DNA of 37,519 nucleotides from NCBI GenBank assembly GCA_001802945.1, contig MHAK01000077.1, forward strand, positions 1-37,519, given 5' to 3'. The position numbers and the translations under genes were made by a program. Of this stretch, positions 5,610-10,132 are shown piece by piece. The DNA is from Ignavibacteria bacterium RIFCSPLOWO2_12_FULL_56_21 (lineage in GTDB: Bacteria; Bacteroidota; Ignavibacteria; UBA10030). How positions within the stretch are numbered: the stretch's first letter is position 1; each line of letters begins with the position of its first letter. Below the pieces are notes generated by a model. That model did no database searches, was not told the origin of the DNA, and worked only from the letters and a program-made list of their open reading frames with translations.

Positions 5610-6602
5610 ATGTTTTCCATCGGCCCTCATAGCTTTACACGGCCCATCCTTTTGGCCCCAATGGAAGACGTCACGGACATGCCCTTCCGGCTCGTCTGCC
5701 GGCGCTTGGGTGCAGATATTGTCTATACGGAGTTCGTGAACGCAGAAGGGCTTATCCGGGAATCCGTCAAGGCGAAGAAGAAGATGGTCTTCGTCGAAGA
5801 AGAACGTCCGTTCGGCATTCAAATCTATGGCGGCGTTGAAGACTCGATGGTACAGGCGGCGAAGCTTTCGGAGTCGGTCGCACCGGATCTCGTCGACATC
5901 AATTGCGGTTGCTGGGTGAAAGACATCGCCATGCGTGGAGCCGGTGCCGGTCTGTTGCGTGATATTCCAAAGATGGAACGGCTTGTGTCGTCGGTGGTGA
6001 AGGCGGTAAAGGTCCCGGTCACTGTGAAGACGCGACTGGGTTGGGATGCCGACGACATTCGCATCATCGACGTTGCGAAAATGTTGGAACAGGTTGGTGT
6101 CCAGGCTTTGACGGTGCATTGCCGCACACGTGTACAGGGACATAAAGGTGACCCGGATTATACGTGGATCCCCAAAGTGAAGGCGGCAGTGCGGTTGCCC
6201 ATTATCGTGAACGGCGGCATCAATACACCGCACGATGCGGATCGGGCTTTTCGTGAAACGGGATGCGATGGCATCATGGTGGCGCGCGGAGCGATAACGA
6301 ATCCGTGGATCTTCCGTGAGATCAAACACTACCTCGCGACGGGAAAGGAACTCCCACCCCCGACTCTCGAAGAAAGGTTTGCATTGATGCTACACCATCT
6401 GAAGGAGTCGGTAGAGTTCAAGGGGGAACGAAAAGCAATCCTCGAAAATCGCAAACACTACTCCGGTTTCTTGAAAGCGCTCCCGCATGTCTCTCAGGTT
6501 CGTCAGGAGCTCATGGTTCCCGAGACGTTCGTAGAAGTAGAGGCGATTCTCTTGAGATACAGGGATTCGCTCCTCACGCCAGATCCAATTACTGCCCATT
6601 AG
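5610..6602 (+). CDS. dusB: tRNA-dihydrouridine synthase, DusB type
   Basis: A 330-residue FMN-dependent TIM-barrel enzyme that reduces uridine to dihydrouridine in the tRNA D-loop with NADPH. It opens RPILLAPMEDVTDMPFR, the usual N-terminal FMN-binding motif; VTVKTRLGWD, TVHCRTRVQGHKG, NGGI and the GIMVARGAITNPWIF phosphate-binding end follow in order. The catalytic loop reads DINCGCWVKDIAMRGAGAGL: Cys101 fits the proton-donating Cys, but the residue after it is Trp where most DusB proteins have Pro, and a second Cys (Cys99) sits two residues earlier. The C-terminal helical RNA-binding region is present (HHLKESVEFKGERKAI onward). ATG 5610 lies just downstream of the IVP remnant and lacks a strong ribosome binding site. 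Confidence 0.93.
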   Translation: MFSIGPHSFTRPILLAPMEDVTDMPFRLVCRRLGADIVYTEFVNAEGLIRESVKAKKKMVFVEEERPFGIQIYGGVEDSMVQAAKLSESVAPDLVDINCGCWVKDIAMRGAGAGLLRDIPKMERLVSSVVKAVKVPVTVKTRLGWDADDIRIIDVAKMLEQVGVQALTVHCRTRVQGHKGDPDYTWIPKVKAAVRLPIIVNGGINTPHDADRAFRETGCDGIMVARGAITNPWIFREIKHYLATGKELPPPTLEERFALMLHHLKESVEFKGERKAILENRKHYSGFLKALPHVSQVRQELMVPETFVEVEAILLRYRDSLLTPDPITAH

Positions 6603-6739: not shown

Positions 6740-8494
6740 ATGGACAAGAAACAAGTCGCCGCTATCCTCGACGAGATTGGAACTCTGCTCGAATTGCAGG
6801 GAGCCAATCCGTTCAAAAGCCGGGCTTTTCACAACGGCGCCCGCACCATCGAGGCATTGACCGACGACCTGGCGACATTGGTAGAAAGCGAAAAGCTCAC
6901 CGACGTGAAAGGAATAGGGGAGGGGCTTGCGAAAGTTGTCCTCGATCTGGTGAAAAAGGGGAAATCGAAAGACTACGACGACCTGAAACGAAAGATTCCG
7001 GACGGCGTGCTCGCCATGACGAGGCTGCAGGGACTGGGTCCAAAGCGGGTGAAGATCTTGTTCGAGGAATTGAAGATTGATTCTCTCGAAAAGCTTGAAA
7101 AAGCCTGCCAGAAACACACGATTGCGGCGCTGGAGGGGTTTGGCACCAAGACGGAGGAGAACATCCTTCGATCGATCGAAGCGGCAAAGAAGACCAGCGA
7201 CAAGCATTTGTTTCCGGAAGCTCGGGCGGCGGCAGATGACCTGCTGAAATCGCTGAAAGACCTCCAGGGAGTTGCATTGTGCGAAGTTGCAGGGAGTCTT
7301 CGTCGCAGGAAAGAGATCATCGGTGACATAGACCTTCTTGTAGCCGCCTCCGGGAAGTCGAAGAACTTCGTCTTTGATGCATTTACAAAGCATTCTTCCG
7401 TTGAGCGTATCGTCGCCAAAGGCGACACGAAGTCCAGTGTCGTACTTCATGGAGGCATTGCCTGCGATCTCCGTGTCGTTGAGAAGAAAGAATTCCCGTT
7501 CGCGCTGAACTACTTCACGGGCAGCAAAGAACACAATGTTGAGATGCGTTCGATCGCCCGGAAGAAGGGGTTGAGCCTCAACGAATACGGTTTTACGAAG
7601 ATCGAAAACGCGCCTTCGGGTACACGCGTGCCTTCATGTTCGACGGAGGAGGATATCTATAAGGCGCTTGGCCTTGCATATGTTCCGCCGGAATTGCGAG
7701 AGAATGGCGGCGAATGTGCTGCGGCCAAAACGGGAAAGATGCCAACGTTGATCGATGTTGAGGACCTCCGCGGCACCTTTCATTGCCACACCACCTACAG
7801 CGACGGGCACAATACACTGCAGCAGATGGCAGAGGCGGCAAAAGCACGCGGTTGGTCGTATTGGGGTGTCGCCGACCATAGCCGTGTGGCTGCGTATGCC
7901 GGGGGATTGACGCCGGAACGCGTTCGGAAACAACATGCGGAAGTCGACGCGCTGAACGAGGCAATGAAGGGATTTCGCATCTTCAAGGGAACAGAATGCG
8001 ACATCCTCGCCGACGGCAGCCTCGATTTTCCCGACAAAGTACTTGCCACGTTCGATTATGTTGTCGTTTCGATCCACAGCAAGTTCAACATGACGGCTGT
8101 GGAAGCGACGAAACGGGTCATCAAAGCGCTTCAGAACAAGTATGCGACATTCCTGGGTCATCCCACCGGTCGACTTCTGCTGTCGCGCGACGGATACCCT
8201 GTCGATGTGAAAGCCGTGATCGACGTTGCCGCCGACTTTGGTAAATCGATCGAGATCAACGCTCATCCGGTGAGATTGGACCTCGATTGGAGATGGGTTC
8301 GCTATGCGCGTGACAAGGGTGTGCCGATCGCGATCAATCCGGATGCTCACAACGTAGACGGCTTGGACGATGTGCGGTATGGCGTCGGGATCGCCCGCAA
8401 AGGATGGCTGGAAAAGAAGCATGTCGTGAATGCCTGGTCGGTGGAAGAAGTGGAGCGTTTCTTTGCGTCGGTCCGTACCTCAAAGAAAGGATGA
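6740..8494 (+). CDS. polX: DNA polymerase/3'-5' exonuclease PolX (family X with PHP domain)
   Basis: A 584-residue protein with the bacterial PolX layout. The N-terminal 8-kDa-like domain and helix-hairpin-helix segments ([31 protein letters not shown]) are followed by palm and thumb; catalytic Asp196 and Asp198 lie in GDIDLLVA after [13 protein letters not shown]-terminal PHP domain starts at [10 protein letters not shown] (His348, His350), with [33 protein letters not shown] and INPDAHN supplying metal ligands for 3'-5' exonuclease and AP-type activities. Such enzymes fill short gaps in base-excision repair. Length is normal. The gene begins a three-gene cluster with an unknown protein (four-base gap) and endonuclease III, which fits a repair role. 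Confidence 0.95.
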
Positions 8495-8498
8495 GAAC

Positions 8499-9443
8499 AT
8501 GAGCATTTATCGTGTCCTCAATATGGATGCTCCGGTGGTCGAGTATCAAGTAATGCATCAACCGAAGCGATCGGTACCGACGAAAGAGTATGTGGAGACA
8601 TTGATCGGACTTCATCGGAGGATTCACGAGGAATCTTTGAATGTCAGCACCGCCTGGGACATGTTCAGTAGGGAGGCGACCGATCGATCGGTTCAGGCGA
8701 TCCGGGGAGTGCTAATGCAGTTCCTAACCACGCCGCTTCAGTCCGATCAGGGCGAGATCAGAAGATTGGTGGGGGACCAGGTGCGGCAGCTGGGCACTAC
8801 ACTCCAGCCGTGGGGGCATGTTGGCGTCATGAGGTCCACGGAGGCCCAGTTCGTGACGGAATTGGTCCGCAATGGTCCGCTCAAAAACGTGTCGACGTCG
8901 GGACGGAAATATCTCAAATCGCTCGGCTTCACTCTGGGCAAAGGGTCGCCTCCAGTATTTGAATCAACGTTCGAGGTGGATGGCGGATTGAACCTGGATG
9001 TGATGGAAGCAATCGTGCGCGACAAGGTTGGCATCTATGCGCAGACGCATGGAAAACACATCCAACAATTCAGCGGGTACGTCTTTGCCGCGTTCAATCG
9101 AATCATCGCCGCCGAACCGAAAGAGGAGAGCGGGGAGACGGCCGAAGCTGTGCTCTTCTTTGCGAAAGGAGAGTCAAAATATGCTCTATTTCGGAAAGCA
9201 ATGTCGGACAGATTACTGAAGGTGCTTGAACGGCATAAGAAAGTCCGGGTCTCTGTTTGGCAAAGAAAACTGGGGCTCGGGAATGGAGAAGAATTTCATT
9301 GCAGGATCGGGGCGGCGTCAAAGGAAATAGCCGGTGCGTTTGTGAAAGACCTGCTCTCCGAACCCGAATCGGGGGGTGTTGGTGCCTCCCTGAAAAAGGG
9401 GCATTTGTTGCTCAAGATGAGAATCGCACTAGCGAAGCCATGA
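8499..9443 (+). CDS. Unknown protein between polX and nth
   Basis: A 314-residue soluble protein starting MSIYRVLNMDAPVVEYQV; ATG 8499 is four bases after the polX stop with AAAGG at 8486-8490. No signal peptide or membrane span. The sequence mixes acidic and basic segments, with helical stretches (DMFSREATDRSVQAIRGVLM) and a Lys/Arg-rich part near 250-270 (LKVLERHKKVRVSVWQRKLG). I recognise no family or catalytic motif. Its stop overlaps the nth start (ATGA at 9440-9443), so the three genes are very likely cotranscribed and translationally coupled. By context it may be involved in DNA repair, for instance as a DNA-binding or end-processing partner, but this is inference from position only. 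Confidence 0.8.
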   Translation: MSIYRVLNMDAPVVEYQVMHQPKRSVPTKEYVETLIGLHRRIHEESLNVSTAWDMFSREATDRSVQAIRGVLMQFLTTPLQSDQGEIRRLVGDQVRQLGTTLQPWGHVGVMRSTEAQFVTELVRNGPLKNVSTSGRKYLKSLGFTLGKGSPPVFESTFEVDGGLNLDVMEAIVRDKVGIYAQTHGKHIQQFSGYVFAAFNRIIAAEPKEESGETAEAVLFFAKGESKYALFRKAMSDRLLKVLERHKKVRVSVWQRKLGLGNGEEFHCRIGAASKEIAGAFVKDLLSEPESGGVGASLKKGHLLLKMRIALAKP

Positions 9444-10132
9444 AACAGAAGACCGAATCACCTACTGATGTTAAGAAACGTGCCTCTGGTATCGTGCGCC
9501 GGCTGCGGAAAGCATATGCAGCGCCGAAAACCGCCTTGGTATTTGAAGAACCGTTCCAACTGCTGATTGCGACAATCCTCTCGGCTCAATGCACGGATGT
9601 GCGGGTGAACAAGGTTACGCCGGGCCTTTTTGCCAAGTATCCTTCACCGGGACACTTTGCTACGGCCCGTGCGGAAGAGCTGGAGCAAGACATACGATCC
9701 ACCGGCTTTTTTCGGAACAAAACGAAAAACATCATCGGGTGCAGTAAGGCTATCATGGAGCGTCATGGTGGGAAGGTGCCGGAGAGATTTGACGATCTCG
9801 TGGAACTTCCGGGAGTCGGCCGAAAGACGGCGAATTGCGTCATGGGCGGTGCATTCGGGGTCAACAGCGGAGTGGTGGTCGATACGCATGTGCAGCGATT
9901 AGCCGGACGTCTCGGATTGTCAAAAGAGGAAAATGCAGAGAAGATTGAGCAGGACTTGATGAAAATCGTACCTCAAAAAGACTGGTACGATTTCAGCAAT
10001 CTCTTGATACTTCACGGAAGGGAAGTGTGCGATGCCCGGAAACCGCTGTGCGGAGAGTGCACACTTCTTGAAGTATGCCCTTCAGGTCCGGGATTCATGA
10101 AGGGAATGAAACCGGCAAAGAAGAAAAGGTAA
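9440..10132 (+). CDS. nth: Endonuclease III (DNA glycosylase/AP lyase)
   Basis: A 230-residue helix-hairpin-helix glycosylase that removes oxidised pyrimidines and cleaves the AP site. The HhH motif LPGVGRKTAN includes the catalytic Lys129 and VVDTHVQRLAGRLG includes the catalytic Asp148. The C-terminal [4Fe-4S] cluster motif is complete: Cys197-x6-Cys204-x2-Cys207-x5-Cys213 (CDARKPLCGECTLLEVC). LLIATILSAQCTDVRVNKVT is the usual N-terminal helix. The start was set at ATG 9440, where similarity begins and where it overlaps the preceding stop; the frame is open farther upstream but that part belongs to the preceding gene's region. A short Lys-rich tail ends the protein. Together with PolX it forms a plausible base-excision-repair operon. 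Confidence 0.95.
   Translation: MKQKTESPTDVKKRASGIVRRLRKAYAAPKTALVFEEPFQLLIATILSAQCTDVRVNKVTPGLFAKYPSPGHFATARAEELEQDIRSTGFFRNKTKNIIGCSKAIMERHGGKVPERFDDLVELPGVGRKTANCVMGGAFGVNSGVVVDTHVQRLAGRLGLSKEENAEKIEQDLMKIVPQKDWYDFSNLLILHGREVCDARKPLCGECTLLEVCPSGPGFMKGMKPAKKKR

Follow-up and report, generated by a model that had tools for sequence, protein, structure and literature searches.

To our knowledge, bacterial endonuclease III (Nth), a 4Fe-4S enzyme, is usually regarded as acting alone. The protein described here is encoded directly upstream of nth, and its closest described counterparts by fold are alpha+beta barrel proteins, several of which are metal or heme enzymes: sulfur oxygenase reductase holds a mononuclear iron on two histidines and one glutamate and has a catalytic cysteine, and the Cld, DyP, HemQ and IsdG heme barrels carry a conserved proximal heme histidine. 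According to PMC4835899, the tandem, fused type of this superfamily is defined by two beta-alpha-beta-beta-alpha-beta repeats packed in one barrel, and the heme histidine of IsdG and OxdA is located in a helix.

The gene, called gene X hereafter, is found in a 37,519-nucleotide stretch of DNA (the window, meaning the whole stretch analysed) from Ignavibacteria bacterium RIFCSPLOWO2_12_FULL_56_21, whose genome has a single copy of it. An earlier note, made from the letters alone, had described a 314-residue gene starting 4 nt after polX and overlapping nth by 4 nt. These coordinates were confirmed: the polX stop (TGA 8492-8494) is separated by 4 nt from the ATG of X at 8499, and the X stop (9441-9443 in the open reading frame) overlaps by 4 nt with the ATG of nth at 9440 (ATGA). 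The identities given to the two flanking genes were also correct, both scoring above the cut-offs of their curated families (Table 1). An alternative in-frame start at 8430 would give a protein of 337 aa and would run into polX; the majority of relatives start at or near the position equivalent to 8499 and not 8430, and an AGGA-type ribosome site can be read immediately 5' of 8499. Judging from this spacing, polX, X and nth would form one co-transcribed and translationally coupled operon; shuffled versions of the region contained promoter-like and terminator-like sites at least as often as the region itself. In one related genome (G009), X and nth share a reading frame and are separated by a single stop. 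The dN/dS ratios of three close pairs of X relatives were 0.067, 0.037 and 0.154, showing that X is under purifying selection and is a real protein.

Table 1. Positions of gene X, its predicted elements and its neighbours in the window
Feature	Position	Strand	Description
dusB-like gene (Dus)	5610..6602	+	first gene of the conserved string; precedes polX
polX, DNA polymerase X with PHP domain	6740..8494	+	NCBIfam PolX, 566 bits (cut-off 426)
gene X	8499..9443	+	314-aa protein; predicted two ferredoxin-like repeats (alpha+beta barrel) and helical hairpin in N-domain
helical hairpin of first repeat	8580..8798	+	helix 28-77 and helix 84-100; DSSP of window model, pLDDT 67-93
family motif LxxxLxTP[LI]xxD	8712..8747	+	residues 72-83; turn between the two hairpin helices; in 34/37 full-length members
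nth, endonuclease III	9440..10132	+	TIGR01083, 256 bits (cut-off 212)

The earlier note knew of no family for this protein, and this held at the level of sequence: X matched no family of Pfam or NCBIfam, and neither X alone nor its 23-row and 37-row profiles gave a coherent or significant match in Pfam, NCBIfam, PADLOC, PHROGs or PDB sequences. When 23 members were compared with curated families, weak and scattered matches were found in 1-3 members each. Weak matches to PDB sequences (14-3-3 proteins, MHC heavy chains) extended over about 20-46 residues and were dismissed as chance. No description of the family came up in literature searches on CT0912, on PolX/endonuclease III operons in Ignavibacteria, on the barrel superfamily and on nth neighbourhoods. 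As far as these searches show, X is thus an undescribed family with a known superfamily fold and an insertion of its own.

Searching with the single sequence detected X in 25/61 genomes, its own included, and searching with the 23-row profile detected it in 41 of the 98 genomes of the window's order, distributed over the families f1 (14/32), f2 (4/5), f5 (15/22) and f6 (8/21), with none in f3 (0/15) and f4 (0/3). In a phylum-wide sample, 8/296 genomes matched X. These 8 all belong to the order, which has 15 genomes in the sample, so that none of the 281 genomes outside the order matched. A class sample (E<=0.05) gave matches in 37/294 genomes, of which 34 were order members with X; a match in G010 (E 0.0087) was by eye a membrane phosphatase-like ORF, and matches in G097 and G544 covered 28-34 residues and were at chance level. 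The ORFs around nth in 20 genomes of the phylum did not include X (best E 0.5), and the viral contigs searched gave no match. The named relatives, at 17 loci, come from MAGs labelled Ignavibacteriales, Ignavibacteriae, Bacteroidetes and similar. Across 22 members, identity to the window protein goes from 43% down to 14%; the matches that Nth and PolX have in the order, at the thresholds chosen, are mostly 50-65% identical, indicating that X evolves fast. A tree was built from the 37 full-length proteins left once the four genomes with a split or fragmentary X (G019, G024, G353 and G374) had been taken out of the 41 and N-terminal extensions had been trimmed in 10 ORFs. On this tree the family label has to change 3 times, the minimum for four groups, so that the tree tracks the taxonomic families; four of its rows sit on long branches, and many of its forks are weak. 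In the samples searched, these results speak for X being an order-restricted, fast-evolving and vertically inherited family of Bacteroidota.

Structures were predicted with AlphaFold for the window protein (23-row alignment; mean pLDDT 84.5, pTM 0.81) and for the G035 member, which is 19% identical to it (37-row alignment; mean pLDDT 88.9, pTM 0.83). Both models show the same succession of elements, beta-(long helix, helix)-beta-helix-beta-helix-beta followed by beta-helix-beta-beta-helix-beta, which corresponds to two ferredoxin-like repeats; the hairpin is arranged in the same way in the distant member. X is accordingly predicted, from both models, to be a tandem, fused ferredoxin-like alpha+beta barrel belonging to the superfamily, with two fused repeats as in the Cld, HemQ and DyP heme proteins. 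Profile searches and structure prediction had been named as a check in the earlier note: sequence profiles brought no coherent match, and the predicted fold turned out to be a known one.

In structure comparisons with Foldseek and VIA-align, where rows within one Z unit were counted as tied, the top-ranked matches of both models were alpha+beta barrel proteins. The uncharacterised marine metagenome protein 2pgc matched the window model with Z 17.1 (rmsd 2.9, 203 aligned of 206 residues) and the G035 model with Z 17.4 (rmsd 2.7, 191 aligned), but it shares 9-10% identity with X and has 206 residues instead of 314, leaving much of X, including the hairpin, unaligned. Sulfur oxygenase reductase (2cb2; also 6qmv and others) reached Z 17.0 with the window model (rmsd 3.2, 222 aligned of 307) and Z 14.0-14.9 with the G035 model; its length is similar to that of X, yet identity is 10% and there is no sequence-profile match. 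The third protein, 3gn6 (CT0912, a Chlorobium tepidum ORFan with a ferredoxin-like repeat), gave Z 15.4 with the window model (rmsd 3.5, 213 aligned of 301) and Z 13.7 with the G035 model. It resembles X in fold, in length and in coming from the wider Bacteroidota/Chlorobiota group, without a sequence-profile match to X. In a viral structure library, the one match at E<=0.001 was a giant-virus "antibiotic biosynthesis monooxygenase", consistent with the fold of X. A fold shared with barrel proteins shows no function.

The only near-invariant part of the family is the motif LxxxLxTP[LI]xxD, which is missing in G002, G008 and G359 among the 37 full-length members and around which the pLDDT of the window model is only 67-78. 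Elsewhere, the best conserved columns reach 20/37 for histidine, 5/37 for cysteine and 22/37 for tryptophan; an HGxH near residue 187 is found in 12/37 members, confined to parts of f1 and f6, and a basic, glycine-rich loop (QRKLGLGxG, residues about 255-263) is common and not universal. With histidine and cysteine no better conserved than this, no heme or iron ligand is shared by the whole family, and no catalytic set is evident. As judged by column conservation, the ligand set of sulfur oxygenase reductase is not found in X, nor is the proximal histidine of the heme barrels: the best histidine column corresponds to residue 20 in strand 1 and not to an alpha2-type helix.

We then compared the neighbourhoods of X. 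In 40 of the 41 X-bearing genomes, nth comes next after X in the same orientation, with a gap of at most 260 nt, and of at most 100 nt in 37. By comparison, polX lies less than 160 nt upstream of X in 14/41 genomes and 160-1600 nt upstream in 15/41; in the other 12, of which some could be accounted for by contig breaks, polX lies on a different contig or at a great distance (10 genomes) or was not found (G050 and G359). One of these 12 (G060) has the end of polX upstream of X on the same contig; polX is about 44 kb from X and on the other strand in G371; the 4 kb upstream of X in G035 contain no polX; and dusB-X-nth remains in G359. G050 likewise has a dusB-like gene at its X locus, and in G001 one stands 5' of polX. 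The X-nth linkage persists whether LiaF, Fer2, Suc_Fer or nothing lies between polX and X. Since X-nth is kept in 40/41 genomes and polX is close in just 14, the link is to Nth and not to the PolX-Nth pair. The association with two base-excision-repair enzymes put forward in the earlier note therefore stands for nth and falls for polX, and the polX-X-nth trio that it described is conserved in related genomes for its X-nth part and is not generally kept as a whole.

The sole exception to the linkage is G050, where X is intact (profile E 8e-93) and nth is on another contig: a 52% identical nth has moved and the string dusB-LiaF-Fer2-SucFer-X has stayed (L086:4420-5406, L167:1332-2021). Homologues apart from repair genes, which the earlier note had said would count against its proposal, were thus found in this one genome. 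Among high-quality genomes, nth was present in 37/37 with X and in 32/38 without X (Fisher p 0.025, with no correction for phylogeny). X is absent from 40 of the 81 nth-bearing genomes of the order, showing that Nth works without X. X can therefore be lost, in genomes that keep nth, and can survive the relocation of nth.

Because the X-nth adjacency is so general and survives changes of everything upstream, we tentatively favour X being a lineage-specific, non-catalytic partner of Nth, an optional accessory subunit with the hairpin turn as its docking surface. The barrel would then be a scaffold and not a metal or heme enzyme, the hairpin turn would contact Nth or the Nth-DNA complex, and the overlapping genes would let X be made in step with Nth. 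The motif may also do no more than cap a helix and so shape the fold, and such a partnership is weakened by G050, which keeps X though nth sits elsewhere. In a bolder form that we hold to be unlikely, X would be a dedicated endonuclease III subunit, evolved from a catalytically silent barrel, whose LxxxLxTP[LI]xxD hairpin clamps Nth or its DNA and which tunes the damage search, the redox state of the cluster or the hand-over to the next repair step. That X is a new repair factor is possible, on the basis of its gene linkage to nth, and the "candidate repair factor" of the earlier note is better worded as a candidate partner of endonuclease III. If true, a co-translated Nth partner limited to one order would offer a testable case of a glycosylase accessory subunit and would give an unnamed barrel family a role.

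Comparing loci, with Pfam matches on eight ORFs and similarity within loci as a basis, revealed a recurrent string, dusB-polX-(LiaF-like)-(Fer2 ferredoxin)-(Suc_Fer/thioredoxin-like 2Fe-2S protein)-(X)-nth, in which the genes in parentheses are present or not. Among genomes without X, some have polX and nth as direct neighbours (for example G010, G011, G012, G022, G044 and G348) and others have the remaining optional genes between the two. Fer2 and/or the Suc_Fer/thioredoxin-like protein occupy the interval at L073-L077, L081-L084, L010, L086, L156 and L159, and it is possible that they are a redox partner set for Nth. A LiaF-like membrane protein, with no evident tie to repair, is present in the polX-nth interval in several families (L015, L018, L071, L072, L078-L082, L151-L153, L156-L158), and an EcsC-family gene replaces LiaF/Fer2 in G361 (L083:1153-2034). 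With these non-repair genes (LiaF-like, Fer2, Suc_Fer-like, EcsC) in the interval, guilt by association is weakened. Since G097, of the same class and outside the order, has polX-Fer2-SucFer-nth and no X, X looks like an order-specific gene added to an older string, immediately upstream of nth.

The chief rival explanation, which we consider possible and almost as likely as the partnership with Nth, is that X is a passenger with an unrelated task, kept by selection on operon expression in this old and slowly rearranging string. Its weight comes from the unrelated genes that share the interval, such as the cell-envelope type LiaF-like protein and the EcsC protein of a single genome, neither with a known repair role, and from X outliving its neighbour nth at the G050 locus; the string without X in G097 agrees with it. 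It fits less well with X being the last gene before nth in all 40 linked genomes and staying there where polX has left the locus. If X is only such a passenger, the useful caution is that unrelated genes, too, are found in the neighbourhood of polX and nth.

It is rather improbable that X, together with the two ferredoxin-type proteins, belongs to a redox or iron-sulfur module that builds, protects or reduces the [4Fe-4S] cluster of Nth. Such a module would explain why Fer2 and the Suc_Fer-like protein share the interval in many relatives and stand directly before X in G060, G354, G362, G050, G369, G371 and G372, and the superfamily includes many heme and iron proteins (our structure matches; PMC4835899); however, X itself has no conserved cysteine or histidine, HGxH being restricted to 12/37 members, and in the window genome no ferredoxin gene lies between polX and nth. 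A monooxygenase or sulfur-oxygenase type of enzyme is very unlikely, for although the best solved structures include sulfur oxygenase reductase (Z 17.0) and putative monooxygenases, identity in those alignments is about 5-11% and no catalytic-type residue set is family-wide.

The repair-gene repertoire was compared, at E<=1e-10, in 75 high-quality genomes of the order, 37 with X and 38 without, leaving one Xth match under the cut-off (G367) out of the counts. X as a replacement for an AP endonuclease was unsupported: Nfo was found in 26/37 genomes with X versus 30/38 without (p 0.44), and Xth in 4/37 versus 3/38 (p 0.71). A Fpg-like gene was found in 10/37 versus 20/38 (p 0.034), a difference that was discounted as evidence for X replacing Fpg because Fpg presence follows families (none matched in f5 and f2). 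In genus g9 of f1, endonuclease IV and exonuclease III were unmatched in 5 of the 6 sampled genomes (G009, G021, G024, G026 and G028); the sixth (G030) has Nfo, with X, nth and polX unmatched. Elsewhere in the window, positions 497-2362 encode a protein of 622 aa in which the rhodanese domain is matched three times.
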